36,978 nucleotides of DNA from the NCBI GenBank assembly GCA_029249355.1, contig JAQWHO010000104.1, positions 1 through 36,978 of the forward strand, written 5' to 3'. Origin of the DNA: Thalassotalea sp. GTDB lineage: Bacteria; Pseudomonadota; Gammaproteobacteria; Enterobacterales; Alteromonadaceae. The notes under the pieces were generated by a model, which worked only from the letters and a program-made list of their open reading frames with translations, was not told the origin of the DNA and searched no databases. A program made the position numbers and the translations under genes. Positions 4,114-36,709 of the stretch are shown in pieces; within the stretch, counting starts at the first letter, position 1, and every line of letters begins with the position of its first letter.

Positions 4114-4427
4114 TTTAGTTTAACTATCACTTCAGATTTTGCATTTGGCTTAACCATGTTAAGCAATTTTTCGGCTTTGCTTTCGATGGCGCTATGCTCT
4201 GCCAAACTATTTTGTTCTAACAACAAGTTGCGCCATTCAATATCAAGTTCATCTCGTTGTGCTAATAATATTTCTAATTGGCTCGTACTTTGTCGGTTTA
4301 AGTGGGTGAAATAAATCACCGAAAAAGCCGATACAACGACCATTGCCAATAAAATATAAACAACCATGTGTTGTTTAATATCTCGCCACAATTCAAAAGC
4401 CAACACGACTTTTGTGCTTGCGGTCAT
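4110..4427 (-). CDS. ftsL: Cell division protein FtsL
   Basis: 105 aa, single TM followed by coiled-coil-like region, located between rsmH and ftsI with 1-4 bp overlaps. Confidence 0.9.
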   Translation of the reverse strand: MTASTKVVLAFELWRDIKQHMVVYILLAMVVVSAFSVIYFTHLNRQSTSQLEILLAQRDELDIEWRNLLLEQNSLAEHSAIESKAEKLLNMVKPNAKSEVIVKLK

Positions 4428-5368
4428 TACTCTGCCAGTCTCTGTGCCACTCGCATAACAGAACTACGAGAACGCACATTTTCTTCGACTTCTTCTTTAC
4501 TCGGTTTATGCTTTCTACCGACTAAGCTTAATTTTTTACCTTTATTCAACTCTTCTTCACTAATAGGCATGCCTCGAGGCACTTTTTTACCTTGTGAATG
4601 CTTTTTCATAAATTGCTTAACAAGACGATCTTCAAGCGAATGAAAACTGATCACCACTAAACGACCGTCTTCTTTTAAAACATTGAGCGAAGCATTTAGT
4701 ACTTTTTCTATTTGCTCAAGCTCGCTATTGATATACATGCGAATAGCTTGAAAACTACGTGTCGCAGGATGTTTTTTTATTTCACGTTGAGGGGCAATTT
4801 TTTTAATTAACGCCGCTAATTCAACGGTGCGGGTTAACGGATTTTTATCACGAGAATCAACAATGCCATTAGCGATACGCCACGCATGTTTTTCTTCACC
4901 AAACGTACGTAATACCCACGTGATATCTTCGACATCTGCCGTTGCGAGCCACTCTGCAGCCGTTTGTCCACGAGATGTGTCCATACGCATATCAAGAGGG
5001 CCATCTTTCATAAAGCTGAAACCACGTTCAGCTTCATCGAGTTGAGGAGAGGAAACACCTAAGTCAAGCAGAATGCCGTCTACTTGACTTAACAACTGGT
5101 GCTTTTCCGCTATTTGCTGAAGATCAGCAAAGCCATGATGTTCGATACTAAAGCGGGAGTCATCAGCAAATTTCTTTGCTGCTGAGATTGCAGTAGGATC
5201 TCGGTCGATGGCTATTAGTCGCCCTTGGTCAGAGAGCTTAGAAAGAATAAGTCCCGAGTGGCCGCCGCGACCAAAAGTACAGTCGATATAAATACCGTCT
5301 GGTTTCATCGCGAGCCCTGTAATTGCTTCGTCAAGCAACACAGAAATATGAGACTTATCTATATGCAT
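4427..5368 (-). CDS. rsmH: 16S rRNA (cytosine(1402)-N(4))-methyltransferase
   Basis: [26 protein letters not shown] motif, [28 protein letters not shown]; dcw context. Confidence 0.97.
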
Positions 5369-5400
5369 TTTTTGTAAACGCCGTATTGTAATTATTCTAT

Positions 5401-5859
5401 TTATAAAGACAGATCAAGTAATCGTTCTGTTAGTTCAATTTCACCTGATTGTATCTTGGCAATGCCTTGCTGCATTTGTCCTTGCCAAGCTTGCTCGCTC
5501 CAAATTTCAAACTTTTTCAACTGACCAACTAACATAATGTTTTTGTCTAAGCTGGCATGTTGACGCAACGGACCATTAATTAATAAACGACCACTTTTAT
5601 CAATTTCACAATCTGAAGCATTTCCAAGTAGAACTTGTTGCAACAATCTTTCTTGCGGATTCATACTGGATAATCCACAAAGTTTTAATTCAATTTCTTC
5701 CCATTCAGGAAGCGGATAAAGTAGTAAACAAGGATGTTGAATATCAACGGTACACACCATTTTTCCTTCGCAATCAGCAAACAGCTCTTCACGATACCTG
5801 GTAGGTATCGTGATTCTATTTTTGCTATCAAGCGTAATTGAACTGGTGCCTCTAAACAT
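5401..5859 (-). CDS. mraZ: Transcriptional regulator MraZ (start re-assigned to [19 protein letters not shown]; the 5970 start is an over-extension)
   Basis: [24 protein letters not shown] and second AbrB-like repeat [19 protein letters not shown]; first gene of dcw cluster. Confidence 0.95.
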
Positions 5860-5903
5860 AACCCTATTTTTCTTATTTAAAATGAGTAATGGAATCTTTA
5901 AGA

Positions 5904-5928
5904 TCCACAATTCCCCACTTTTCTCCAC
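5904..5928 (-). promoter_or_regulatory. Putative MraZ box (three GTGGR repeats at exact 10-bp spacing)
   Basis: Minus strand reads GTGGAgaaaaGTGGGgaattGTGGA upstream of mraZ; MraZ is known to bind direct TGGGN-type repeats with 5-nt spacers upstream of its own gene. Confidence 0.8.
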
Positions 5929-6036
5929 ATTTATACAGTTTAGTGAGAAATGCAAAGTTATGTCAAGCAAAGAATCGTTATTTCGATCGCGACGATCGCT
6001 AATAAAATTAAGGGATTTAGCGAAGGTGATGAATTT

Positions 6037-6051
6037 GTGGGGTTTTGTGGA
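6037..6051 (+). promoter_or_regulatory. Second, oppositely oriented pair of MraZ-box-like repeats
   Basis: Plus strand GTGGGgttttGTGGA, same 10-bp periodicity, about 110 bp further upstream of mraZ. Confidence 0.4.
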
Positions 6052-6398
6052 TCTCTATCCCTAAAAATGATGAAAATTTAATTTTTTAAGGTCGTTTTTG
6101 AGATCTGTTTGCTGGTTTTAGTGTCAGAAGTGGATGCCCAGAAATGTGAAATAATTAGAAGAAAGTAATTTTACTTTAAAACAATACGTTAAACATCTTT
6201 TATTAACAGAGAAACACTTCGTTGTAACATAAAGTCGCCATAAATGTATTTCTCCAGCCATTATTAAATCAAATATGTTCAAAAGGATGACGACATGTTT
6301 AGCTATCTGGCTCAACAATTAGCTCGCAACCTCTTGCAAATGCTTTTGTCGACAAGTAAGTTATTATCAATAAAATCTCCACTAAAAATAACAATATT

Positions 6399-7865
6399 AT
6401 GAGTAAATTCAACCGCCGTAATTTTATAAAGTCAGTCGCCGCAGTAACTGCTGCAACTATAACAACGAGCCAAGCCTCTCCTGATACTTTTACTCAAGTA
6501 CCTAAAAAATCACCTATATCAAAAAATAAAACCGTTATGGGGCTAACCTCACCTAAAATGTCGACGGTAAGAGTGGGTTTTATCGGCGTTGGTGAACGTG
6601 GTTATGGTCATGTAAAACATTGTTGTCATATAGAAGGTGTTGAAATAAAGGCTATATGTGATCTTCATCAAGATGTGATGGATAAATCCAGCCAATATAT
6701 GATTGAACAAGGATTACAGGTGCCTGATCAATATACCGGATCAGACCTTTCTTATAAAGATATGCTCAGCAGACAAGATATTGATATTGTGATTATTTCA
6801 ACACCGTGGCGCTGGCATACACCTATGTCGGTCGACACGATGGAAAGTGGTAAGCATGCTTTTGTTGAAGTGCCAGCAGCAACCACCGTTGAAGAATGTT
6901 GGCAATTGGTCGATACCGCTGAACGTACACAAAAAAATTGCATGATGATGGAAAACGTCTGTTACGGTCGCGACGAACTTATGGTACTCAATATGGCGCG
7001 CCAAGGTGTATTTGGCGAATTACTGCACGGAGAAGCGGCATATATTCACGAATTGCGTTGGCAAATGAAAGAAATTGATAGAAAAACAGGTTCGTGGCGT
7101 ACTTATTGGCACGCTAAAACCCAAGGTAATTTATATCCGACCCATGGTTTAGGCCCTGTTTCTCAATATATGAATATAAATCGTGGTGATCGATTTGATT
7201 ATTTAACTTCAACTAGCTCACAAGCACTAGGAAGACAGTCATATGCTCAACGAGAATTTCCCGCAGATCATGAACGCAATCAATTAAAGTATATAAATGG
7301 CGACATGAATACCACGGTAATTAAAACGAAGTTAGGTCGCAGTATTATGATTCAACACGACACAACGACACCGCGCCCTTATTCTCGACATAATTATATT
7401 CAAGGTACCAATGGTGCGTTTGCAGGCTTTCCAAATAGAATTGCTGTTGAATCACCGCCAAAAAATATTGCACTACAATATGACAATGAATATCAACAAA
7501 CACTTAAACAATGGCAAGATTCAGGCAAACAAGGTCGAGAACCTTCAGCGCCCAGTTTTCATCGCTGGGATCACCAATTAGACAAATGGCAAGCGGAATT
7601 TGATCATCCTTTATGGTTAAAAATGGGGGATGCAGCAACTAAAAATGGTGGTCATGGGGGGATGGACTTTTTGATGTTGTGGCGAATGATGTATTGCTTA
7701 CAGCATGGTGAAGCACTTGACCAAGATGTTTATGATGCAGCCGCATGGTCGGTTATCGCACCATTAAGTGCTGATTCTGTAACCGATAGAAGTAATAGTA
7801 AAGATATTCCTGATTTTACGCGTGGTGTTTGGCAAACAGCAAAACCTCTCGGCATTATTAGTTAA
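6399..7865 (+). CDS. Tat-exported Gfo/Idh/MocA-family protein, GH109-like (NAD-dependent alpha-N-acetylgalactosaminidase family)
   Basis: N-terminal RRNFIK twin-arginine signal; Rossmann [16 protein letters not shown]109-like [24 protein letters not shown]. Confidence 0.85.
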
Positions 7866-12962: not shown

Positions 12963-15900
12963 TTAAAGAGATTTACTTACTACCTGTAATATACTGCTCA
13001 ACAGTAATTCAGCGTTTACTGGTTTAGCAATATGTAAATTCATACCGGCTGCAAAGCTATTTTCTATATCTTCTTGGCGTGCATGAGCTGTCATCGCAAT
13101 AATAGGTAAGTTTTTAAATTTTTCATCTTCGCGTATTAGTTTTGTCGCGGTTAACCCGTCCATCACCGGCATTTGAATGTCCATTAACACCACGTCAAAA
13201 TGCGCTTGTTGCAAGCAATCAATAGCAAGTTGACCATTTTCTACCACGGTAATATTAGCTTGCATACTTTTTAAAAGCTCTTTGGCCACCAATTGGTTCA
13301 CTAAGTTATCTTCCACCAATAAAATATCGATATTCTCGAGATTTTTCGGGGCTTCTTCAATTAGATTTTCTGTAATTTGGCCTTTGGGAATAAGTTTATT
13401 TTCTTGGGTATTAACGTCGGCATTAATATCAAAAATGTTAAACAAATCATAACGAGATAATGGGGCTTCACAAACAATATAAGGTAATTGATATTTATCT
13501 AACAATTCAAAAGACATACTACAGTCACTATTTTGGCTTGGTAAACAAACCGCTAACATGCATTTATTTTTCTCTTCAGCATTTTTTATAGGATGGCAAA
13601 GCTGCTTTGTTAATATCGTACATAAATTCTCATCTACGTTATTAACATCAATAAATAATATATTTAACTTTGAGGCCTGATGATTTTCAATTTCCTCCGG
13701 TGAAGATAATGGATGATGTTGAAAATGGTAATCATCAATTAAGCTGATAAAGCTATTGGGTAATTCATAATTAAGACAAAAAATTTGCACATGATTATTG
13801 TATTCGGCATAAGGATTAACATTGTTTATTTTTAGCGGCAAAACAAAATTAAACTCAGTACCAATACCTTCACTACTCAGTAATTTTATTTCACCACCAA
13901 GTAAATTGATGATCCGTTGGCAGATCGACAACCCTAGCCCTGAACCACCATATTCGCGAGTCATTGACTCATCAGCCTGCATAAAAGCTTCAAACAAATG
14001 ACTTTGTTTCTCTTTAGCAATACCAATACCTGTATCAATAATACGAAAGCGCACTAAAGTATCAATTTCACTAATTGCGATCACCGCTAAGTGAACAGTA
14101 ACATTGCCTTTAAGGGTAAATTTGATCGCGTTATTCAATAAGTTACTGAGCACTTGCACCAAACGCATTTCATCGGTTATGGCAATGAGTGGAACATTCG
14201 ATTCAATATTGACAATAACGTCTAAACCTTTTTGATTGGCATTGCCTATATTTAAGTTAACCGCTTGATTCACAATGCGATCTAAGCTGCATTCAGCTTT
14301 CATAATCGACATATTACCCGATTCAATTTTCGCCAAATCTAGCAACTCATCAATCAAATGCAATAACGCTCCTGAAGCACTTTGCGCATTCTCTAAATGT
14401 TTTTTCTGCTGATTTGAAATAGGTGTTTTTTCAAGTAATGAATGCATACCTTGAATAGCATTTATCGGTGTTCTAATTTCATGGCTCATATTTGCCAAAA
14501 ATTGACTCTTAGTCTGGTTAGCTAGCTCCGCTTGCTCTTTTGCAGCAGCTAACGCAGCATTAATTGCATATTGCTCAGTTACATCACGAATAATAACAAT
14601 GGTACCTAGTACTTGTTGTTCTTGATCATAAAATTCAGAAATGAATAATTCATAGGTATTATCAACGGTTTCTATTACTTGAAAAATACCGTGTTCAGTT
14701 AAAGTCTGCGATTGTTTTTTACTTGCGGCTAATAATGCTGAACCTAATTCGTTACGAATTAAATCCCCTGCTTGGCGCCCTAAAATAGCTTGCTCTTTTT
14801 TACCTATAAAAGTTTCAAACGCTAAGTTACAACCAATTAATACCCCTTTAGGATCATTAAAAATAAGGTAATCTGGTATTGCATCCATCACTGAATGCAA
14901 AATGGCATAATCGTGTTGATGCTGTTTACTTTTTTCTAATAATGCCTGTGTTTTATCATTAACTTTAATATCTAAAATATTATTTTGATCTTTAAGCTGT
15001 TGCATTAAGCTTCTGTTTTGGCTAAAAATATCTCCGACAATATTAAACCAATGTAACCAGCCACTAGGTGGTTGAATTTTTCCATGATCACCTTGCGCAC
15101 TATAAGCAATATGACTAATAAATTGTTGCGTAGGTTTGATAAATGTTTTGCTCGTAACCAAATAAACAACAGCTAATAAAACTATCTGACCAAAAAACAG
15201 TAGAAAAAATAGCCCCATAGATCGTTCAAAAATAGGATCCGTAAACGTTTTATAAGGCTGGTATTTCAGCAGAGTCCAGCCATTTAGTGCAAGCTGCTCT
15301 TTTTGTACTAGCAACGATTTATATTGAGAAGAAGCAGGTAAATTTTGAATGTTTTGCAGTGATAATTCAGCTAATTCTTGTGGCACAATGTCTTGCCAAA
15401 TTGTTTGTCTTTTTAAAGGGAGACTTTGTTGAGTGTGATGTAACAACACCTGACCTTTCTCATCAATAAGCACATAAGTGTCATTTTCACCTACATCTAA
15501 AAGTTCCTTTTTATGAAGTCTTGATAAGTCTATATTGATAATGACAGCACCAATATATTGCTCATTTCGAAACACGGCTCCACCTACTGCGGTATATAAA
15601 CTTTTACTCGCCGTTCCTATATAAGGATCCGACCACAGCAGCGTATTAGAATCACCATCAGTTTTGCTGAGCCGTTTAATATGTTCATTATCAATTAAAT
15701 TATTTGAATATTGCCAATTCGAACGATTTACCCAAGGATAAATACTAACGAACTGATTTTGAGAAACGTAATAAAACCAATTAGCCGTTTCATTAGCATT
15801 TTGTGCCGTCATAAAAGCAGGCGTTAAAGCATGCGCCATTGCTAATTCGCTTGCGAGCATGCCATCAAGATTATTAATATCACCAATGCCGGTTATGTTC

Positions 15901-16367: not shown

Positions 16368-16396
16368 TTGACGTTTTATCATAACCAAGTTAAATT
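16368..16396 (+). promoter_or_regulatory. Predicted sigma70 promoter for GH1-symporter operon
   Basis: TTGACG (16368-16373), 17-bp spacer, TAAATT (16391-16396). Confidence 0.6.
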
Positions 16397-16409
16397 GAAA
16401 GCGCTTCCA
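16396..16409. promoter_or_regulatory. LacI-family operator (TGAAAGCGCTTCCA), copy 1 upstream of GH1
   Basis: Near-perfect match to the palindrome TGGAAGCGCTTCCA found in three intergenic regions of the window. Confidence 0.85.
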
Positions 16410-16428
16410 GAGTTGTCGCCACTCATTT

Positions 16429-16442
16429 TGGAAGCGCTACCA
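16429..16442. promoter_or_regulatory. LacI-family operator (TGGAAGCGCTACCA), copy 2 upstream of GH1
   Basis: Near-perfect match to TGGAAGCGCTTCCA; centre-to-centre 33 bp from copy 1. Confidence 0.85.
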
Positions 16443-19525: not shown

Positions 19526-19539
19526 TGGAAGCGCTTCCA
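19526..19539. promoter_or_regulatory. LacI-family operator TGGAAGCGCTTCCA, copy 1 upstream of TBDR
   Basis: Perfect 14-bp palindrome. Confidence 0.9.
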
Positions 19540-19568: not shown

Positions 19569-19582
19569 TGGAAGCGCTTCCA
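19569..19582. promoter_or_regulatory. LacI-family operator TGGAAGCGCTTCCA, copy 2 upstream of TBDR
   Basis: Perfect 14-bp palindrome; 43 bp centre-to-centre from copy 1. Confidence 0.9.
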
Positions 19583-19625: not shown

Positions 19626-22607
19626 ATGAAAACGTCAAATTTCAAAAAAACTCAACTCGCTAAAAGCTTGTCGATAATTTTAGGAGCAACGGCTATAACA
19701 CCAGTTTTTGCTGCACAAGAAAATGAAACAGATAATATCGAAGTGATCGAAGTTACGGGTATTCGTAGCAGTATGATCAAATCAATGGATATAAAAAGAA
19801 GTTCTCAAGGTATTGTTGATGCAATCAATGCTGAAGATATTGGTAAATTTCCAGATAGTAACTTAGCCGAGTCTTTGCAACGCATTACGGGTATTTCAAT
19901 AGAAAGATCAAACGGTGAAGGTAGTAAAGTAAGTGCCCGTGGATTTGGTCCTAATCGTAACTTGGTGACATTAAATGGTCGTCAATTACCAACTACGACC
20001 GGCGAACGTTCTTTTGATTTTGCCAACCTTGCGGCTGAAGGTGTGAGCGGTGTACAAGTATATAAAACATCGAAAGCAGATGTTCCTACAGGCGGTATTG
20101 GTGCAACAATCAATATTTCTACTCATAAACCTCTTGATAACCCGGGACAAAAAGCGGTATTTAGTTTAGAAGCTTTAGACGATAAATCAACAAAGAAAGG
20201 TTCTGCAACACCACAACTATCAGGTTTATATTCAAATACTTCTGATGATGGAAAGTTTGGTGTTTCAATTTCAGGAAGTTACTCAGAGCGTGAAAGTGGT
20301 AGTCAACAAGGTAAAACAGCTTTTTGGCGAAGTTTTGCTGGTATTCAAGATACTGATTGGAGTGGTCCTAATGCAGCATGGGGTGGTGTAGCAAAAGATG
20401 CTTCACAAACCAATCGTCCTGGTGACGATGATATTTACTCAGTACCACAAAATACAATTTATAAGTTTGAAGAACAACAACGCAAAAGAAGTAACGCACA
20501 GTTAGTTTTACAATATAAGCCGATTGATAGCGTAACAGCCACATTAGATTATACCTACGTGAAAAAAGAGAATGACACACAATTCAACGATATTTCTGTG
20601 TGGTATAACTTTGGTCCAAGTGAAAATACTTGGAGTGACGGCCCTATTTCATCTCCTCTAATTTATTCTGAAACATTTGATCCAAATAACCCAACTGATT
20701 TAGCCATGGGTGGCGCTGATTACAGTGTGAAAGATGAAACAAAATCTTTAGGTTTAAATATCGAATGGCAGGTTAATGATAGCCTTGCTATGCGTCTTGA
20801 CCATCACGACTCTTCTGCACAAAGTGATCCTAATAGTCCTTTAGGATCAAGTAACTTAATAGGTATGGCGGCATTCGTGCGTACTGCTTCAGCAACTGAT
20901 TACTCCGGTGATATTCCGATGCTTTCAGTAACTGGTGGTAACTCAGTGCAAGCGTCAGACATGATAGTTACAGGTAGTGTATTTACCAATGCCAAAAATC
21001 GTGCTGATGTTGAACAAACTCAATTACACGGTAACTATGTTTTTGAAGAAGCCGGCAGCATTGATTTTGGTATAGCGCTTACAAGTTCAGAAAACCGTCG
21101 TCGTGTTAAAAATGTACAGCGTAATAACTGGGGTGGTGAAGGCACTGCAGGTTCTTTTGATGAATCATTATTCCCTCGAGAAAGTATTCATGACCAATTT
21201 GATAATTTAAGCGGTGGTAATTTCGATGGGTTCAACGGCGATGTTGAAATTTTAGAAAACTATTTTGCGTTTGACTTTAATGGTGTAAGAGAGCGTGCAG
21301 TTGACGTTTTAAGTGTTCAAGCAGCAGCATTAGGTGATTGCGGTAATTCATTCTGTCCATCAAGTGACTACGCTTCAGAAACAGACCAATACACCAAAGA
21401 AGAAATGCAATCGGTTTATTTTCAATATAACTATGATGGCGAAATAGGTGATATGCCCTTCGACGTTCACGTAGGTATTCGTTATGAAGAAACTGATGTA
21501 ACTTCTAGCTCCGCTGTTCCAGGCTTTACCGCTGAACCACGCTGGGAAGGTACAAGTGAAGTTTCATTACTAAGCTCTGGCGCTATCGTTTATGGTACAC
21601 AAGAAGCGAGCTACGATCACACGTTGCCTAGTATCAACTTCAATTTAGAAGTTACCGACGATATCATTTTACGTGCTGCTTTCAGTGAAACTATTGGTCG
21701 CCCACAGTACACAAGCATGATCGGTGGCACCAAATTAAATGCCGGTTCACGTGTTGGTGGTGGTACAGGTTCTACCGGTAATGCTGGTTTATTACCTTTA
21801 GAGTCTAAAAATTTCGATTTGTCAGCAGAATGGTACTATGAAGAAGGCAGTTATGTTTCTTTAGGGTATTTCACTAAAGACGTTAAAAACGATATTTTAA
21901 CAACAACAATTAATACTACAACGGATATTGTGAATCCAGCAGATGGCCCTTATGTAGCTGAAGCAAGAGCAGCGGTTGGCAATGATGGTTTAGCACAGCG
22001 CCAATACATTTTTGATACATATGGCGCAACTGACCCTGAACATGTATTTATGGATAATGGCAACATCATTATTCTAGGCAATGCTGCTACTGATAACTTA
22101 ATGAATTTTGGTATTGATACGCCGCAAAACGTCTCTGGTAAAACAGGTTACGATGGTATCGAATTCGCTGTTCAGCATTTATTTGGCGACAGTGGTTTTG
22201 GTGGTATTGTTAACTACACGAAAACAGATACAGATAATGAACATAATGACTTCTTACTTGACTCACAAGTAGCAGAATTAGGTATTAGTGATTCGGCTAA
22301 CGTAGTTGGTTTTTATGAGAAAGACGGTTTATCCGTTCGAGTAGCTTACAACTGGCGTGATAAATTCATTGTAGCATTAGTTCAAGATGGCGGCGCAGGT
22401 CCTGGCCCACGTTATATTGAAGACTACGCTCAAGTTGATATGACTGTAAGCTACGATGTTCCACAAGTTGAAGGTTTAAACATTTTCTTTAATGCTATTA
22501 ATATAACTGAAGAAAATGCTCGTACTAGTGGACGTGATGAACGCCAAGTTTTAGATTCAATTCAACAAGGCGCTCGCTACTCTTTAGGTGCACGTTACAC
22601 GTTCTAA
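19626..22607 (+). CDS. TonB-dependent receptor (carbohydrate-type, proteobacterial)
   Basis: Signal peptide, IEVTGIRSSMIKSMDIKR, plug domain FPDSNLAESLQRITGISIER..VSARGFGPNRNLVTLNGRQLPT, C-terminal aromatic residue (ARYTF). Confidence 0.95.
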   Translation: MKTSNFKKTQLAKSLSIILGATAITPVFAAQENETDNIEVIEVTGIRSSMIKSMDIKRSSQGIVDAINAEDIGKFPDSNLAESLQRITGISIERSNGEGSKVSARGFGPNRNLVTLNGRQLPTTTGERSFDFANLAAEGVSGVQVYKTSKADVPTGGIGATINISTHKPLDNPGQKAVFSLEALDDKSTKKGSATPQLSGLYSNTSDDGKFGVSISGSYSERESGSQQGKTAFWRSFAGIQDTDWSGPNAAWGGVAKDASQTNRPGDDDIYSVPQNTIYKFEEQQRKRSNAQLVLQYKPIDSVTATLDYTYVKKENDTQFNDISVWYNFGPSENTWSDGPISSPLIYSETFDPNNPTDLAMGGADYSVKDETKSLGLNIEWQVNDSLAMRLDHHDSSAQSDPNSPLGSSNLIGMAAFVRTASATDYSGDIPMLSVTGGNSVQASDMIVTGSVFTNAKNRADVEQTQLHGNYVFEEAGSIDFGIALTSSENRRRVKNVQRNNWGGEGTAGSFDESLFPRESIHDQFDNLSGGNFDGFNGDVEILENYFAFDFNGVRERAVDVLSVQAAALGDCGNSFCPSSDYASETDQYTKEEMQSVYFQYNYDGEIGDMPFDVHVGIRYEETDVTSSSAVPGFTAEPRWEGTSEVSLLSSGAIVYGTQEASYDHTLPSINFNLEVTDDIILRAAFSETIGRPQYTSMIGGTKLNAGSRVGGGTGSTGNAGLLPLESKNFDLSAEWYYEEGSYVSLGYFTKDVKNDILTTTINTTTDIVNPADGPYVAEARAAVGNDGLAQRQYIFDTYGATDPEHVFMDNGNIIILGNAATDNLMNFGIDTPQNVSGKTGYDGIEFAVQHLFGDSGFGGIVNYTKTDTDNEHNDFLLDSQVAELGISDSANVVGFYEKDGLSVRVAYNWRDKFIVALVQDGGAGPGPRYIEDYAQVDMTVSYDVPQVEGLNIFFNAINITEENARTSGRDERQVLDSIQQGARYSLGARYTF

Positions 22608-22658: not shown

Positions 22659-22693
22659 TAAGGCCGCTAAATTTAATCATTTATGCGGCCTTA
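22659..22693 (+). terminator. Probable terminator downstream of TBDR
   Basis: TAAGGCCGC ... GCGGCCTTA perfect 9-bp inverted repeat, 17-nt loop, followed by TTATTGA. Confidence 0.6.
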
Positions 22694-22882: not shown

Positions 22883-24436
22883 ATGCATAAACCATTAAAA
22901 AAAATAGTGATAGTTGGTGGTGGTTCTGCTGGGTGGCTGACAGCAGGTATAATAGCCGCAGAGCATATATCTAACGAAAATTCTGTGGTTGAAATTACCT
23001 TAGTTGAGTCTGCAGATGTTGCACCAGTTGGTGTAGGTGAAGGCACTTGGCCTTCCATGCGAAGTACGTTAAAAAAAATGGGCATTTCTGAAACTGCTTT
23101 CTTCTTATCGTGTGATGCTAGCTTTAAACAGGGTTCAAAGTTTTCACATTGGACAACAAATACCAACGAACACTATTACCACCCTTTTACCCTACCTAAT
23201 GGTTTTAATGACATAAATCTTGCTCCACATTGGCAACCCTATAGAGACAAAATTAGTTTTGCCGATGCTGTTAACGAACAAAGTCATCTAGGTTTACATA
23301 ATCGAGCGCCTAAACAAATATCAACCGCTGAATATGCGTTTAGTGCCAACTATGGTTATCATTTAGACGCAGGAAAATTTGGCCAATTTTTACAAAAGCA
23401 TTGCACTGAAAAATTACACGTTAAGCATATTATTGATCATGTGATAAAGGTTAATTCTGCGGAAAATGGCGATATAGCCTCGATAAGCACCAAGCAGAAT
23501 GGGGAAATTTCAGGTGACTTATTTATTGACTGCACTGGATCTGCGGCTATTTTATTCGCTAAGCATTATAACATTCCATTTGTCAGCAAAAAACAGGTCC
23601 TTTTTAACGATTCAGCCCTCGCCGTACAAGTACAATACCAAAACGATGAAAGCCCAATAGCTTCTTTTACCCATTCAACAGCACAAAAAGCCGGTTGGAT
23701 TTGGGATATAGGCTTACCTTCGCGCCGCGGTGTCGGGTACACTTATTCCAGTTCACATATTAATGATGAAAACGCCGAAAAAGAATTACGAGCATATATT
23801 ACCCCGTCGCTTGGCGAAAAAGCAGCAGACTCAGCGATGATCAGAAAAATTGCGATTAACCCTGGCCATCGAGAAAAATTTTGGCATAAAAACTGTGTTG
23901 CTATTGGCATGTCGGCCGGGTTTATCGAACCTTTAGAAGCTTCGGCATTAGTGCTAATAGAGCTTTCAGCAAAAATGATCAGTGAACAATTACCCGCCAA
24001 CAGACAAACAATGGACATTATTGCTAAGCGTTTTAATGAAAAATTTTTGCATCGTTGGGAAAATATAATTGATTTTCTAAAATTACATTATGCGCTGAGC
24101 AAAAGAAATGACTCATCGTATTGGCTTGATAATCGTGAGAGTTCTACCATACCTGAAACTCTCCAAGAACAACTAACTTTGTGGAAGTATCATTCACCGT
24201 ATAAGTTTGATGCAACACATACTGAGGAAATGTTTCCGTCCGCGAGCTTTCAATATGTACTTTACGGCATGGGATTTATCACTGAACCTCCTCGTAAAAA
24301 AAGCGTAGACCAATCGCAAGAGGCTGAAAAATTATTTAATGAAAACGTTAATCGCACTAAACAACTATTAACGGCGTTACCGACAAATCGTGAATTAATC
24401 AATAAAATTAAACAATATGGCCTACCAAAAATTTAA
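22883..24436 (+). CDS. Flavin-dependent tryptophan-halogenase-like protein (FDH-1)
   Basis: FAD motif VGGGSAGWLTAG, VGVGEGTWPSM, putative catalytic Lys in ASFKQGSKF, variant W.W.I motif GWIWDIGLPSRRG, GFIEPLEASALVLIE. Confidence 0.88.
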   Translation: MHKPLKKIVIVGGGSAGWLTAGIIAAEHISNENSVVEITLVESADVAPVGVGEGTWPSMRSTLKKMGISETAFFLSCDASFKQGSKFSHWTTNTNEHYYHPFTLPNGFNDINLAPHWQPYRDKISFADAVNEQSHLGLHNRAPKQISTAEYAFSANYGYHLDAGKFGQFLQKHCTEKLHVKHIIDHVIKVNSAENGDIASISTKQNGEISGDLFIDCTGSAAILFAKHYNIPFVSKKQVLFNDSALAVQVQYQNDESPIASFTHSTAQKAGWIWDIGLPSRRGVGYTYSSSHINDENAEKELRAYITPSLGEKAADSAMIRKIAINPGHREKFWHKNCVAIGMSAGFIEPLEASALVLIELSAKMISEQLPANRQTMDIIAKRFNEKFLHRWENIIDFLKLHYALSKRNDSSYWLDNRESSTIPETLQEQLTLWKYHSPYKFDATHTEEMFPSASFQYVLYGMGFITEPPRKKSVDQSQEAEKLFNENVNRTKQLLTALPTNRELINKIKQYGLPKI

Positions 24437-24494
24437 GCCAATATACAATTTAAACACTTTAAAAGTACGTTAAACAACAAATTTGGAAACCCAT

Positions 24495-25223
24495 ATGGCA
24501 AACCATGCATTATTAAACAGTGTCGACCACCAACATTTAAAAGTTATAACTGAACGCTCTGAAGAGTTTGGTGATAACGTTTGGTACACCATGACCTTTC
24601 CTGCAGAGTTTAGATCTGTCCAAGCCTACTACCCTATATTTTTTAATAAAGATCTAAATACTGGTCAGTTTTTTTCTGTGGCATTATTGGGTTTTCAAAA
24701 TAATGAAAACTTGTTTCTATCAAATAAAACATGGGATGCACCTTATATTCCGCTCAGTATCACAAGGCAGCCATTCTTAATTGGCGTACAAAAAGTCGTG
24801 GAAGATGGCGAAGAAAAAGAGCAGAGAGTATTGCATATTGATCTTGATCATCCACGTGTAAATCAAGAAAAAGGCGAAGCACTCTTCTTAGAGTTTGGCG
24901 GTAATTCAGATTATTTGGATAATGCTGCGGATATGCTAGAAGCAATGCATCATGGCATTATTGATAATAAAATATTCATGGAGTTATTAATTGAACACGA
25001 ATTATTAGAACCTTTTACATTAGACATTACTTTAAACGATGAAAGTAATAATCAACTGGTGGGATTCTATACAATTAACGAAGATAAGTTAAAAGAACTA
25101 AGTAGCGAAATTCTAGCAAGCTTGCATTCAAAAGGTTATTTGCAAGCGATTTACATGGCAATTGCTTCACAAGCCAATGTTCGCACGTTAATGAATAAGA
25201 AAAATGCTCTACTTGGTTTGTAA
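24495..25223 (+). CDS. SapC family protein (ATG at 24495 preferred over upstream TTG at 24483)
   Basis: SapC-like architecture: ...FPAEFRSVQAYYPIFFNKD..., SVALLGFQNNENLFL, WDAPYIPLSITRQPFLIG. Confidence 0.82.
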   Translation: MANHALLNSVDHQHLKVITERSEEFGDNVWYTMTFPAEFRSVQAYYPIFFNKDLNTGQFFSVALLGFQNNENLFLSNKTWDAPYIPLSITRQPFLIGVQKVVEDGEEKEQRVLHIDLDHPRVNQEKGEALFLEFGGNSDYLDNAADMLEAMHHGIIDNKIFMELLIEHELLEPFTLDITLNDESNNQLVGFYTINEDKLKELSSEILASLHSKGYLQAIYMAIASQANVRTLMNKKNALLGL

Positions 25224-25270
25224 CTCTCCACTACTCAAAACCTTCAGTTGCATGATAAAAAGGTAAATCC

Positions 25271-26287
25271 GTGTTAACGATTGATCATAAAGTACAAGAA
25301 ATACATAACTGCCAACCAGGTAAAATACCTGAGTTTGTATTATCTTCTGCTGAACCGATAATTTTGAAAGGGTTTGGGGCAAACTGGCCTGCCGTTATTG
25401 CGGGTAAAGAATCACCAAAATCAGCCGCTAACTACTTAAAAAAGTTTTACACCAATACGCCTGTTACCGCTTACTACGGAGCACCAGAAAACAAAGGTCG
25501 CGTTTTTTATAATGAGAACTTAACAGGGTTCAATTTCAATAGCTCAAAAGCAAGTCTTACTCAGGTATTAGATAAACTGCTTGAACACCTCGATGATCCA
25601 AAACCACCTACCATGTATGTCGGTTCAACAGAAATCAACAATTGGTTACCTGGTTACAATGAAGAAAACAACGCTTCAATTGACACTCTAAAGCCACTCA
25701 CCAGTATTTGGATTGGCAATCAAAGTAAAGTCGCAGCACATTTTGATTTTCCGAATAATTTAGCCTGTTGTGTTGTCGGTCGTCGAAGATTTACATTGTT
25801 TCCGCCAGAACAATTAGTCAATTTATATGTTGGCCCAATGGAGTTCGCCCCTGGTGGGCAAGAAATTAGCTTGGTAGATTTTGACAACCCTGATCTTGAA
25901 AAACACCCTAAATTTGAACAAGCGTTAGCCTCTGCCCAAGTTGCTGAATTAGAAGCCGGTGATGCATTATTTTTGCCTAGCATGTGGTGGCATCATGTAC
26001 AAAGCTTAACGGCATTTAATGTGCTAGTAACACATTGGTGGCGTGATAGTCCGGCCTTTATGGGACGACCAAAAAATGCTCTCGACTTGGCTATTTTAAG
26101 CTTGAAAGATTTACCTTTAGCACAAAGAAAAGCATGGCAAGCACAGTTTAACTATTATATTTTTGAGCATGATCAGGAAGATTTTTCACATATTCCACAA
26201 GCAGCACAAGGCAGATTGTCAAAGCCGCTAGACGAATTAATGGCAAAACAAATTCGCGCTGATTTACTCAATAAATTAAAACGATAA
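25271..26287 (+). CDS. Cupin_8/JmjC-like Fe(II)/2-oxoglutarate-dependent oxygenase family protein (GTG start)
   Basis: HFDFPNNLACCVVGRRRFTLFPPEQ (HxD iron ligands) and LFLPSMWWHHVQSL (distal His), as in FIH/cupin_8 proteins. Confidence 0.88.
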   Translation: MLTIDHKVQEIHNCQPGKIPEFVLSSAEPIILKGFGANWPAVIAGKESPKSAANYLKKFYTNTPVTAYYGAPENKGRVFYNENLTGFNFNSSKASLTQVLDKLLEHLDDPKPPTMYVGSTEINNWLPGYNEENNASIDTLKPLTSIWIGNQSKVAAHFDFPNNLACCVVGRRRFTLFPPEQLVNLYVGPMEFAPGGQEISLVDFDNPDLEKHPKFEQALASAQVAELEAGDALFLPSMWWHHVQSLTAFNVLVTHWWRDSPAFMGRPKNALDLAILSLKDLPLAQRKAWQAQFNYYIFEHDQEDFSHIPQAAQGRLSKPLDELMAKQIRADLLNKLKR

Positions 26288-26303
26288 GAAATAAGGTTTT
26301 ATT

Positions 26304-27800
26304 TTGAATACAGCAAACAAAAAAATTAAAAAAGTTGTCATTGCCGGTGGTGGTACCGCAGGTTGGATGACGGCGGCGGCATTAGCAAAATTACTTGGTA
26401 AAAACCTTGAAGTCGTTCTAGTAGAATCGGATGCTATTCCTACTGTTGGTGTAGGCGAAGCAACGATTCCTACTTTGCATATTTTTCATCAATTATTGGG
26501 TATCAATGAACAAGAGTTTATGGCAGCGACAAACGCCACGTTTAAATTAGGTATTTCATTTGAAAATTGGCGTGATGTTAACAAAGACTATATCCACTCG
26601 TTTGGCTTTTTGGGTCAAGGGTGTTGGGCTGCTGGCTTTCAACATTTTTGGTTTAAAGGCCTGGAAAGAGGCATTGTTTCTGATATTGGTGATTACGTTT
26701 CTGAGCATTTAGGCGCAAGAGAGGGTAAGTTTGCCGTATTAGCAAATCAAGAGCTTAATCATGCCTACCATCTTGATGCTGGCCTTTATGCTAAATTTTT
26801 ACAAAAAATTGCCGAAAAACACGGTGCTAAACGCATAGAAGGTAAAATCACTCAAGCAAATTTAGATAATGAGACAGGTTATATTGACTCAATATCGTTA
26901 GCTTCAGGGCAAACAATTGAAGGTGATTTATTTATAGATTGCTCCGGATTTAGAGGCATATTAATTGAAGAAGCTCTTCATACAGGCTATGAAGATTGGA
27001 GCCATGTTCTTCCTTGCGATAGTGCTATCGCAGTACAAACAAAAACAGTGAATAAACCTGTGCCTTATACACGTTCAATTGCTAGAGACTCTGGCTGGCA
27101 ATGGCAAATTCCATTACAAAACCGCACTGGTAATGGCTTTGTCTTTTGCAGTAAATACATGACGGACGAAGAAGCTAAAAAAACACTGTTAGACAATGTT
27201 CAGGGCGAATTATTGAATGAACCTCGGGTGATCAAATATAAAACAGGCACTAGACGTAAACATTGGAATAAAAACTGTGTCGCAATTGGATTATCTTCAG
27301 GTTTTATCGAGCCTTTAGAATCAACGGGGATACATTTATTTCAAAAGGCAATCGTGCGATTAATGCTGATGTTTCCTTCACAAGGTATTAAACAGTCTGA
27401 TATTGATGAGTTTAATAACCAAACGAAAACCGAAATAGATAACATTAAAGACTTTATTATTCTGCATTATAATTTAACCGATCGTACCGATACACCATTT
27501 TGGCGACATTGTCGAAGTATGGAAATTCCTGACACATTAAAACATCGTTTGTCATTATTTGAAGAAAGTGGCCAAGTATTTAAAAAAGCTGAAGAGTTAT
27601 TTGGAGAAACCTCTTGGGTACAAGTTATGCTTGGGCAAGGTTTAATGCCTAAACAGTATCATCCCATTATTGATTTAATGGGCGATGATGAACTCGCTAA
27701 TTTTTTGAATAAAATAAAATCTGGCGTTAGACGTAAAGTCGATAATTGGCCTGATCATAATGAATTCATTCAACATTATTGTAAATCCACAGTAAAATAA
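26304..27800 (+). CDS. Flavin-dependent tryptophan-halogenase-like protein (FDH-2; TTG start)
   Basis: VIAGGGTAGWMTAAAL, VGVGEATIPTLHIFHQLLGI, putative catalytic Lys in ATFKLGISFENW, SGWQWQIPLQNRTGNG (W.W.IP), SSGFIEPLESTGIHLFQKA. Confidence 0.93.
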   Translation: MNTANKKIKKVVIAGGGTAGWMTAAALAKLLGKNLEVVLVESDAIPTVGVGEATIPTLHIFHQLLGINEQEFMAATNATFKLGISFENWRDVNKDYIHSFGFLGQGCWAAGFQHFWFKGLERGIVSDIGDYVSEHLGAREGKFAVLANQELNHAYHLDAGLYAKFLQKIAEKHGAKRIEGKITQANLDNETGYIDSISLASGQTIEGDLFIDCSGFRGILIEEALHTGYEDWSHVLPCDSAIAVQTKTVNKPVPYTRSIARDSGWQWQIPLQNRTGNGFVFCSKYMTDEEAKKTLLDNVQGELLNEPRVIKYKTGTRRKHWNKNCVAIGLSSGFIEPLESTGIHLFQKAIVRLMLMFPSQGIKQSDIDEFNNQTKTEIDNIKDFIILHYNLTDRTDTPFWRHCRSMEIPDTLKHRLSLFEESGQVFKKAEELFGETSWVQVMLGQGLMPKQYHPIIDLMGDDELANFLNKIKSGVRRKVDNWPDHNEFIQHYCKSTVK

Positions 27801-27809
27801 AACGATCAC

Positions 27810-28523
27810 ATGACAAACACCAGCTTACAGGTATCAAGTAATATAACCTTACAGGTGCTAACGGTGGGAAAAGATAAAACCCCCGTGATCGTTATTGATG
27901 ACTTTGCAATAAATACCAATGACATTATCGAACATGCCTGCAACGAGGCGCAATTCAATGCACTTGATAATACTCATTACCCTGGCATTCGTGCACCTTT
28001 GCCAAAAGATTATGTTATCAATGTGCTACAAGCAGTCTATCAAGAAATTTGCCGAATTTATAACATTCCGACCAATTTGCAACTCAAGCCCCAAGAAATA
28101 TACTTTTCTCTAATCACAAAAAAAGCAGAAGAGTTAAGTCTTTTGCAGCGTATGCCGCATTTTGATACTAGTAGACCATTTTACTTTGCAGTTTTGCATT
28201 ATTTAAATGCAGGCGAGCATGGTAATACCGGTTTATTTCGACATAATCCTACAGGGTTAGAAAAAATAGAAAATCACAATACTGAGAAGTATTTAACTGC
28301 TGCACAAAACTTTATTGATACACATGGTGAACGATCACAAACCTATTTTACTGAGTCAGATGAACATTTTGAGCTTTACCATCAGATTGAATATAAACCT
28401 AACCGATTAGTTATTTATCCTGGGCAGTTATTACATTCAATTATCATTTCGCCACAGCATGATATCGACCCTAACCCGAATACAGGTCGCCTCACAGCTA
28501 ACATATTTATAGAGTTCACCTAA
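27810..28523 (+). CDS. DUF6445-like protein, putative Fe(II)/2OG-oxygenase fold
   Basis: HFDTSRPFYFAVLHYLN (HxD) and RLVIYPGQLLHSIII...GRLTANIFIEF (distal His and Arg); follows FDH in operon. Confidence 0.65.
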   Translation: MTNTSLQVSSNITLQVLTVGKDKTPVIVIDDFAINTNDIIEHACNEAQFNALDNTHYPGIRAPLPKDYVINVLQAVYQEICRIYNIPTNLQLKPQEIYFSLITKKAEELSLLQRMPHFDTSRPFYFAVLHYLNAGEHGNTGLFRHNPTGLEKIENHNTEKYLTAAQNFIDTHGERSQTYFTESDEHFELYHQIEYKPNRLVIYPGQLLHSIIISPQHDIDPNPNTGRLTANIFIEFT

Positions 28524-28524
28524 G

Positions 28525-29340
28525 ATGAAAATCCTGTCAACTGACTTTATTCTCGCGTTTTTATTACTCATTAGCACATTATTTTTAAATGTTGATGCTC
28601 TAGCAAAAACTCAGTTTAAATGGCCAAATAATGCCAAAGCAGCGGTTAGCTTATCGTATGATGACGCTTTAAATAGTCAACTGGATAATGCTTTGCCAGC
28701 CCTTATTCATTACGAACTCAAAGCAACTTTTTATTTAACATTAACTTCACCCACTATTGCAAAACGTTTAAATGAGTGGAGAGCGGCGGCGGATTTAGGT
28801 TATGAATTAGGAAATCATTCGCTTAATCATGCCTGTAGAGGCTCTTTACCTAACCGAGAATGGGTGCCTGCGCATAACGATTTAGATAAAAAACTCTTTA
28901 AAGAAATTATTCAAGAAGTACAAACGGCTAACACTTTTTTACAGGCAATTGATGGTGAATTAGTTCGCACATTTACCGTACCATGCACCGACCAAATGGT
29001 TGAGAACAAAAACTACGTTATCGCGTTAAAAGAAAGCTTTGTCGGTATTAAGTCACATGTAGGGAATCCGCCACAAAATATGACTTCATTTAATCGATTT
29101 AACGCTCCAGTAATGGCTCCTAGCAATGTTTCAGGCCAAGTGTTAATTGATTATGTTAAACAGGCAAAAAAATACGGCACCATTGCCCACATTACTTTTC
29201 ATGGTATTGGTGGTGATCACCTTGCGGTGTCAAACGAAGATCATCAAGCGCTTTTAAAATATTTATCGATAAATAAAAACGACTATTGGGTTGATACTTA
29301 CCGAAACATCAGTGAATATCTCTCTAAAAACAATCACTAA
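28525..29340 (+). CDS. Secreted polysaccharide deacetylase (NodB-like) family protein
   Basis: Signal peptide, AAVSLSYDDALNSQLDNALPALIHYELKATFYLT, YELGNHSLNH metal-binding motif. Confidence 0.88.
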   Translation: MKILSTDFILAFLLLISTLFLNVDALAKTQFKWPNNAKAAVSLSYDDALNSQLDNALPALIHYELKATFYLTLTSPTIAKRLNEWRAAADLGYELGNHSLNHACRGSLPNREWVPAHNDLDKKLFKEIIQEVQTANTFLQAIDGELVRTFTVPCTDQMVENKNYVIALKESFVGIKSHVGNPPQNMTSFNRFNAPVMAPSNVSGQVLIDYVKQAKKYGTIAHITFHGIGGDHLAVSNEDHQALLKYLSINKNDYWVDTYRNISEYLSKNNH

Positions 29341-29411: not shown

Positions 29412-29963
29412 ATGAAAGCAGATATCGAGTCTCATCAATTTAATAAAACACTTTATTTTTATGATCTTGTTTCAAGTTTTTCAATTTCTTTATGCGGCTG
29501 TCCGGTAATTTTTGAAGACCAAATAGACGTCTATAAATCACCACAAGAGTTGCTTAGTTTCCCTGGTTTACATTCTCAAAGTAAACACCTAGCCCCTTAT
29601 CAATTGCGCTCTCAAGCATTAAAGGGTGACATCAATAAAGGTCAACACATTGCCTCTTGTTGCATGATGTTAGCAAATACGGCTTACGAATCAGTCAAGC
29701 ACTATAATGATGGATCTGAGGCTTTTGAATTTTTTAGACATATTAGAAATGCATCTTCGCATTTAAATGTTTTTCAATTTAATCATAAAGAACCGGCTAA
29801 ACCCGCAAAATGGCGAGGTGCAGAAATAAATCAATTATTAAAAGGCGATAAAAACCCGCTACAAAATCAACTTTGTTTTGGCTATTTTATGGGTGTTGCA
29901 GATATTCTGGAATTATTGATGGATATTGAAAAAATAATCATACTTCAACAGAAAGCTAAGTAG
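29412..29963 (+). CDS. Hypothetical protein with HEPN-like RNxxxH motif
   Basis: 183-aa ORF; EFFRHIRNASSHLNVFQF matches the R(N)x3H signature of HEPN-domain proteins; otherwise unrecognised. Confidence 0.6.
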   Translation: MKADIESHQFNKTLYFYDLVSSFSISLCGCPVIFEDQIDVYKSPQELLSFPGLHSQSKHLAPYQLRSQALKGDINKGQHIASCCMMLANTAYESVKHYNDGSEAFEFFRHIRNASSHLNVFQFNHKEPAKPAKWRGAEINQLLKGDKNPLQNQLCFGYFMGVADILELLMDIEKIIILQQKAK

Positions 29964-35507: not shown

Positions 35508-35521
35508 TGGAAGCGCTTCCA
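35508..35521. promoter_or_regulatory. LacI-family operator TGGAAGCGCTTCCA, copy proximal to MFS-GH3 operon
   Basis: Perfect palindrome; abuts minus-strand promoter TTGCAA (35544-35549)-N17-AAGAAT (35521-35526). Confidence 0.9.
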
Positions 35522-35566
35522 TTCTTGATCCATAAAAAATAAATTGCAATGATTTTCTGAACTTTT

Positions 35567-35580
35567 TGGAAGCGCTTCCA
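35567..35580. promoter_or_regulatory. LacI-family operator TGGAAGCGCTTCCA, copy proximal to lacI-type gene
   Basis: Perfect palindrome; 59 bp centre-to-centre from the other copy. Confidence 0.9.
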
Positions 35581-35710: not shown

Positions 35711-36709
35711 ATGGCGACTATTTACGAAGTTTCAGCATTAGCTGGTGTATCACTTTCCTCAGTATCAAGAGTACTTAATGATCATGAGCATGTCAGTGAA
35801 AAAACCAAACAAAAAGTCATGGCGGCTATGGAAGAGCTGGGTTACCGGCCTAATAGTGTTGCGCGTTCTTTAGCGTCTAACCGTTCAAATAGTATTGGTG
35901 TTTTAGTCTCTGAGCTTCACGGGCCTTTTTATGGTGAAATGATCAGTAGTATTGAAATGGAACTAAGAAAGGCAGGAAAACATGCTGTTGTAACGGCAGG
36001 TCATAGTGTAGAAAAAAGTGAAAAAGAAGGTATAAACTTTTTAATCGACCGAAACTGCGATGCCATAATCATATTAATTGATTCACTGTCCAATGAGTTT
36101 TTAATTGAATTATCGAAAGGTTCAACTCCAATCGTAATATTGAACCGTTTGATCCCTGAAATTAAAGAAAACTGCTTCTATATTGATAATGAACTTGGCG
36201 GTTATTTAGCAACAAAACATATTATCGAGCAAGGACATAAAGAATTAGCTTATATTTCTGGCCCGCTATTTAAACAAGATGCCAATGAGCGTTTAAATGG
36301 TCATAAAAGAGCATTAAATGAAGCTAATTTAAAGTTTGATGAAGAACTGTTTTATGAAGGCGACTTTTTAACAACCAGTGGTCGTGTTGGTATTGATCAT
36401 TTAATTAAAACCAAACGTAAATTTACTGCCGCAGTATGCGCCAATGATGAAATGGCTTCTGGTGCGATGAAAGGTGTTAGAGATCATAATATGTCGATTC
36501 CACAAGACTGTTCAGTGATCGGTTTTGATAACGTTTATTTTGCTAATTATCTTCACCCTGAGCTGACAACAATGAATTATCCCATCAAAGAAATGGCGAA
36601 AATGTCAGCACAATGGATATTAAAAAATGTGTATAAACGACCTGATGTGTTTGTGAATAATAAATTTACCCCAGAATTAATTGTCAGAGATTCAATCACA
36701 AAAATTTAG
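35711..36709 (+). CDS. LacI family transcriptional regulator (probable regulator of the beta-glucan locus)
   Basis: N-terminal HTH ATIYEVSALAGVSLSSVSRVLNDHEHVSEKTKQKVMAAMEELGYRPNSVARSLAS and periplasmic-binding-like effector domain. Confidence 0.96.
   Translation: MATIYEVSALAGVSLSSVSRVLNDHEHVSEKTKQKVMAAMEELGYRPNSVARSLASNRSNSIGVLVSELHGPFYGEMISSIEMELRKAGKHAVVTAGHSVEKSEKEGINFLIDRNCDAIIILIDSLSNEFLIELSKGSTPIVILNRLIPEIKENCFYIDNELGGYLATKHIIEQGHKELAYISGPLFKQDANERLNGHKRALNEANLKFDEELFYEGDFLTTSGRVGIDHLIKTKRKFTAAVCANDEMASGAMKGVRDHNMSIPQDCSVIGFDNVYFANYLHPELTTMNYPIKEMAKMSAQWILKNVYKRPDVFVNNKFTPELIVRDSITKI

Follow-up and report, generated by a model that had tools for sequence, protein, structure and literature searches.

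Among the described systems closest to the locus considered here are the flavin-dependent halogenases (FDHs) Xcc4156 and BrvH, which brominate indoles, reject free tryptophan and have open sites; their native substrates are reported as unknown, and larger substrates or peptides were proposed by the authors (PMC7336383, PMC5945002). A related precedent is QhpG, a flavoenzyme acting on protein-bound tryptophan (PMC7876137), while carbohydrate utilization loci with a TonB-dependent receptor (TBDR), termed CUT loci, combine this receptor with inner-membrane transporters, glycoside hydrolases and a LacI regulator with shared operators (PMC1790865). The locus described here, in a 36,978-nucleotide stretch of Thalassotalea sp. 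(contig JAQWHO010000104.1; this whole stretch is called the window), is likewise built, and differs by an oxidative cassette encoding two FDHs, a SapC-family protein, a Cupin_8 protein and a DUF6445 protein, followed by a polysaccharide deacetylase. The word "halogenase" is absent from the main text of PMC1790865, and the term TonB from the main texts of both the Xcc4156 and BrvH papers (PMC7336383, PMC5945002), whereas FDH2 of the present locus stands in a defined operon context. No published description of the TBDR-FDH-SapC cassette as a unit was found, nor a published function for the gene set, in agreement with the earlier sequence-only reading, which took the physiological role of halogenase-like genes next to TonB receptors to be unresolved; subscription journals lay mostly outside this search, so priority is not claimable.

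The cassette is a conserved module that sits directly 3' of carbohydrate-type TBDRs in Pseudomonadota, irrespective of the glycan. Tentatively, its target would be a polypeptide produced together with these receptors and oxidatively modified in the cytoplasm, a prediction drawn from comparative analysis.

Conservation of the module and its link to the receptor

Open reading frame (ORF) calls and profile searches confirmed the six genes proposed by the sequence-only reading, all intact and co-directional, in the order FDH1-SapC-Cupin_8-FDH2-DUF6445-polysaccharide deacetylase downstream of the TBDR; the gaps, said to narrow from about 58 to 1 bp, measure 58, 47, 16, 9 and 1 bp. A SapC search of public genomes, biased toward close SapC relatives, yielded 51 loci spanning Gammaproteobacteria including Burkholderiales (Colwellia, Paraglaciecola, Glaciecola, Microbulbifer, Rheinheimera, Cellvibrio, Shewanella and others, plus Duganella and Rugamonas). 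The TBDR lies upstream of the cassette in 49 of these, and the order TBDR-FDH1-SapC-Cupin_8-FDH2 recurs in 42, so the arrangement is not a matter of chance; DUF6445 is present in 22 and the deacetylase in 8. A less biased check used 40 SapC loci drawn from a spread sample of 199 Pseudomonadota genomes, 67 of which contain SapC: all six cassette-context SapC genes lie by a TBDR with an FDH, five of them also with Cupin_8, and the remaining SapC genes form a stand-alone group that is never found by a TBDR-FDH cassette. An FDH1-less form, TBDR-SapC-Cupin_8-FDH2, occurs in a genome of another Pseudomonadota class (L318). The module core is made up of SapC, Cupin_8 and FDH2, usually with FDH1 and often with DUF6445. 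The deacetylase, initially counted as a cassette member, is accessory and outside the core, because of its low recurrence (8/51) and because, unlike the other five proteins, it has a signal-like N-terminal segment, MKILSTDFILAFLLLISTLFLNVDALA.

The linkage to the receptor also holds when the FDHs are taken as the starting point. In six same-family genomes, 34 of the 39 FDHs have a TIGR01782 TBDR at a distance of 6 kb or less (2.1 expected), 30 of these FDHs being downstream, and the same is true of 27 of the 29 FDHs of five further genomes (1.3 expected); pooled over these 11 genomes, with the window's own left out, the proportion is 61/68 against approximately 3.4 expected. These neighborhood statistics, together with the recurring gene order, answer a check proposed by the sequence-only reading in its favor. 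The window's genome itself has eleven PF04820 matches, and in every case in which the contig extends far enough its FDHs adjoin TBDRs; two contigs end before the expected TBDR place. Its FDH loci occur with GH20 (chitin), alpha-amylase (starch) or beta-glucan genes; elsewhere, the full cassette adjoins a pullulanase in Rugamonas and a partial cassette adjoins GH18 in Cellvibrio. Because the glycan genes beside TBDR-linked FDHs vary in this manner (beta-glucan, pullulan, starch, chitin), the cassette is linked with the receptor type and not with the glycan. The suggestion that it acts on a compound arriving with an algal glycan is therefore disfavored by these pullulanase, alpha-amylase and chitinase contexts and by the presence of the cassette in Duganella and Rugamonas, which, to our knowledge, are not marine algal degraders.

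On the TBDR tree, the linkage changes about 15 times, compared with 54 under shuffled labels; it is thus largely inherited, and also repeatedly gained or lost. Hitchhiking, in which the cassette is tied to TBDR genes by history and without any functional link, fits the circumstance that we know of no deletion phenotype, yet it is highly improbable when 61/68 FDHs stay by TBDRs through these gains and losses.

Predicted activities of the encoded proteins

The Pfam scores of the cassette proteins are far over the cut-offs, that of the deacetylase by less, and both FDHs match PF04820 (cut-off 21 bits) over the full length (Table 1). In the homologue alignments, the GxGxxG motif for flavin adenine dinucleotide is invariant in FDH1 and FDH2. 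The catalytic residues K82 and E352 and the W.W.I core of FDH1 are kept in 49/49 sequences, the last signature position being Gly in 46 (WxWxIG) and Ala in 3, instead of the Pro of WxWxIP; in FDH2, K81 is found in all 55 sequences with a residue there, E339 in 56/56, the W.W.I core is invariant, and the WxWxIP Pro is kept in 55/56. Judged by these alignments, both belong, as the sequence-only reading had supposed, to the flavin-dependent halogenase family, and their catalytic residues are intact; their halogenating activity is putative. The nearest solved structure to FDH1 is 2pyx (655 bits, full length), an unnamed structural-genomics halogenase without assigned function whose structure is unpublished according to PMC7336383. 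FDH2 matches Xcc4156 (6y1w) end-to-end with 627 bits; it is colinear with both Xcc4156 and BrvH (6frl), with the same catalytic residues and a one-residue gap to Xcc4156.

The Gly variant in FDH1 (46/49), along with structural relatives such as QhpG that are monooxygenases (PMC7876137), would suit an explanation in which the FDH-like proteins are flavin oxygenases or redox sensors in vivo, the 2-oxoglutarate (2OG) proteins tie uptake to oxygen, iron or 2OG, and the cassette regulates TBDR function. This explanation is unlikely, since the catalytic Lys and Glu are invariant in both FDHs, WxWxIP is retained in nearly all FDH2 sequences (55/56), and close relatives halogenate in vitro.

FDH genes were also encountered elsewhere. 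At locus L068 (G000:C103, positions 2756-7380), three FDH genes stand in a row, two on the forward strand and one on the reverse; they are flanked by a TBDR and by a GlcNAc locus of GH20, BadF-type kinase and NagA-like genes, and form the densest halogenase group seen in the genome. Relatives of FDH2 occur in 81 phage records, mostly of cyanophages, and those cyanophage relatives that were listed share about 30% identity with it; another two records, unannotated fecal "Bacteriophage sp." entries with 46-49% identity to FDH2, may be bacterial fragments.

The two proteins proposed to have an Fe(II)/2OG-oxygenase fold likewise held up. Cupin_8 retains H157, D159, N163 and H241 in 58/58 sequences, which includes the HxD...H iron triad; it shares this triad with FIH and JMJD5 (asparaginyl and arginyl hydroxylases), has an FIH-like N163 but Arg in place of the 2OG-binding Lys of FIH, and is distant from FIH (69 bits over approximately 115 residues). 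The AlphaFold2 (AF2) model of DUF6445 has a predicted local distance difference test score (pLDDT) of 95.8 and matches PHD2 (5la9) and OGFOD1 (4nhy) with a Foldseek probability of 1.00, and H117, D119, H209 and R227 (HxD...H...R) are kept in 28/28 sequences; by this model, DUF6445 is predicted to have the double-stranded beta-helix of 2OG-Fe(II) oxygenases. Since the triad Asp is kept in both, Cupin_8 and DUF6445 look like hydroxylases and not like 2OG halogenases, according to textbook knowledge of the family.

The nearest matches of SapC are from Colwellia (81% identity in the public genome search), by which the window belongs to a Colwellia-like draft genome. SapC was modeled by AF2 with a pLDDT of 95.9; no match below E 0.001 was obtained among PDB or viral folds, and no enzymatic motif was recognized. 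The large stand-alone SapC group (L104-L143) is without TBDR, FDH or shared neighbors, and its fold is unmatched. Its neighbors were tried as a clue to function and set aside, no neighbor being common to more than 4 of 35 loci.

Candidate targets of the modification

As the module carries no signal peptides, it is presumably cytoplasmic, so that its target would be made in or taken into the cytoplasm and would be common to all these TBDR systems. The likeliest target would be the TBDR itself in its nascent state, or some other protein or peptide of the envelope that is made alongside. In the mechanism envisaged, the FDHs would consume FADH2, O2 and a halide, probably bromide, and would halogenate or oxidize side chains of the indole or phenol type; the two 2OG-Fe(II) proteins would hydroxylate side chains, SapC would bind the substrate or provide a scaffold, and the modified product would then be exported, with a hairpin 3' of the TBDR holding enzyme levels under receptor levels. 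A polypeptide target is suggested by the colinearity of FDH2 with Xcc4156 and BrvH, the proposed peptide users, and by the precedent of QhpG on protein tryptophan; moreover, the nearest DUF6445 folds include protein hydroxylases, and Cupin_8 matches FIH, which hydroxylates asparagine residues in proteins. The fuller proposal is that sugar receptors of the outer membrane, or peptides made with them, have their side chains halogenated and hydroxylated before export by a dedicated system in the cytoplasm, with SapC binding the substrate; it is doubtful as it stands, and no description of such post-translational modification of TonB receptors was found.

Several results weigh against a polypeptide target. 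Approximately two-thirds of the TIGR01782 TBDRs lack a neighboring FDH (linked: 19/53 and 20/56). The maturases QhpG, LodB and GoxB resemble the present FDHs as halogenase-related flavin enzymes that oxidize tryptophan inside a protein (PMC7876137); the match falls far short of the curated cut-offs, FDH2 reaching 36.9 against 240 bits for QhpG and 26.6 against 400 for LodB, and no cognate quinoprotein was seen here. In the loci listed, no conserved precursor-like small ORF was found in the gap between the TBDR and the first cassette gene, the one gap searched. Finally, a fixed aromatic target should separate linked from unlinked TBDRs, and no TBDR residue tracks the linkage in a scan over 15 phylogenetically independent sister pairs, where the best score was 6 against a null mean of 5.8 (P=0.55).

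The individual candidates fared no better. A first TBDR set suggested Y743, W234 and W910 as linkage-tracking residues; in a second genome set, for which TBDR reading frames were selected by profile, W234 and W910 were not replicated as diagnostic residues and Y743 was weak (linked 8/18, unlinked 7/36, p 0.1). F107 differed in the second set (linked 10/18, unlinked 5/36, p 0.003) and hardly in the sister pairs, and was rejected as a target, Phe being improbable as an FDH substrate. A modification cluster of the type for ribosomally synthesized and post-translationally modified peptides is likewise not supported, no conserved precursor gene having been found in the TBDR-FDH1 gap, the one gap searched. 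For the simplest version of the protein hypothesis of the sequence-only reading, in which one fixed aromatic position of the receptor is the target, there is no support; variable residues, or several receptors in trans, may be modified instead. Modification of several TBDRs or envelope proteins in trans, the linkage to one receptor reflecting co-regulation alone, would explain how strong linkage coexists with the lack of any residue separating linked from unlinked TBDRs; it is nonetheless quite unlikely, given that the ten or so FDH genes of the window's genome each lie near their own TBDR where the contig suffices, which suggests dedicated pairs.

The main rival to a polypeptide target is a small aromatic product: the cassette would make or alter an indole- or phenol-derived compound that aids sugar uptake, signaling or competition, and the TBDR may import this compound or merely be co-expressed. 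By textbook knowledge, FDHs with known substrates use small aromatics or carrier- or peptide-bound aromatics, and BrvH and Xcc4156 do brominate indole. However, BrvH acts on indole at a very low level, an activity that its authors considered probably non-native, genes for biosynthesis or export were not seen to recur with the cassette in the loci examined, and the glycan contexts differ; a small aromatic product is hence a possibility on the doubtful side. Oxidative modification of a polypeptide is still preferred, at the tentative strength given above.

Regulation, surrounding genes and significance

The window contains 6 LacI-type operator sites, compared with 0.13 expected, arranged as three pairs that appear to delimit a small regulon within the glucan locus, with the LacI regulator as their likely reader. 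Because such pairs precede the TBDR, GH1 and the MFS/LacI genes (Table 1), joint LacI control probably couples the TBDR operon to the glucan genes; paired operators likewise precede the TBDR in four Colwellia relatives (L018, L029, L030, L045). In some Colwellia, FDH2 and the deacetylase are separated by an additional CBM_4_9 gene that has an operator of its own (L030, 13576 and 13792-14958).

Table 1. Positions in the window of the cassette, its receptor and the regulatory features
Feature	Position	Strand	Basis
TBDR, Xanthomonas-Caulobacter type, first operon gene	19626..22607	+	TIGR01782, 622 bits
FDH1, flavin-dependent halogenase family, WxWxIG variant	22883..24436	+	PF04820, 385 bits
SapC-family protein, cassette subfamily	24495..25223	+	PF07277, 241 bits
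Cupin_8, FIH-like Fe(II)/2OG protein	25271..26287 (GTG start)	+	PF13621, 235 bits
FDH2, flavin-dependent halogenase, intact WxWxIP	26304..27800 (TTG start)	+	PF04820, 634 bits
DUF6445	27810..28523	+	PF20043, 236 bits
Polysaccharide deacetylase, signal-like N-terminus	28525..29340	+	PF01522, 44 bits
LacI-family regulator	35711..36709	+	Pfam LacI
Operator pair before GH1, one mismatch each	16396-16442		LacI-type palindrome
Two perfect LacI-type operator palindromes TGGAAGCGCTTCCA 5' of TBDR	19526-19539, 19569-19582	.	Palindrome count
Two identical LacI-type operators between divergent MFS and LacI genes	35508..35580	.	Palindrome count
Hairpin just 3' of TBDR stop; stem region of 12 bp, loop of 6 nt	22660..22692	+	RNA folding

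A significant fold (z < -2, computed against mononucleotide shuffles) follows the TBDR in 44/54 loci, as compared with FDH1 in 2/49, SapC in 13/55, Cupin_8 in 4/56 and FDH2, which is often the last gene, in 22/55. The hairpin is a possible partial terminator or 3' stabilizer, and it may permit unequal amounts of receptor and enzymes. A pattern scan for promoters and terminators gave no excess over shuffles; it missed this hairpin, probably owing to its bulge and weak T run.

The SapC start was placed at the ATG at 24495, with an in-frame TTG at 24483. GH16, GH3 with Exop_C, an MFS carrier and the LacI regulator lie 3' of the cassette, and GH1 and an MFS_2 carrier lie 5' of the TBDR. Between the deacetylase and GH16, a 183-aa ORF (29412-29963) lacks a credible family match, and homologues at the equivalent position were seen only in L048-L051.

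Taken as a whole, the sequence-only reading stands as regards a conserved oxidative cassette tied to TBDRs, and finds no support as regards the algal-glycan compound and, where a fixed residue is concerned, the TBDR as target. SapC, present in a third of the sampled Pseudomonadota genomes, has a confident predicted fold that has no counterpart among solved structures. Several FDH structures of this group have been solved, while the native substrates are reported as unknown (PMC7336383, PMC5945002), and the conserved operon makes the substrate question testable: it points the search to the neighboring receptor and to whatever depends on SapC and Cupin_8, and the glycan-independent context narrows that search further.

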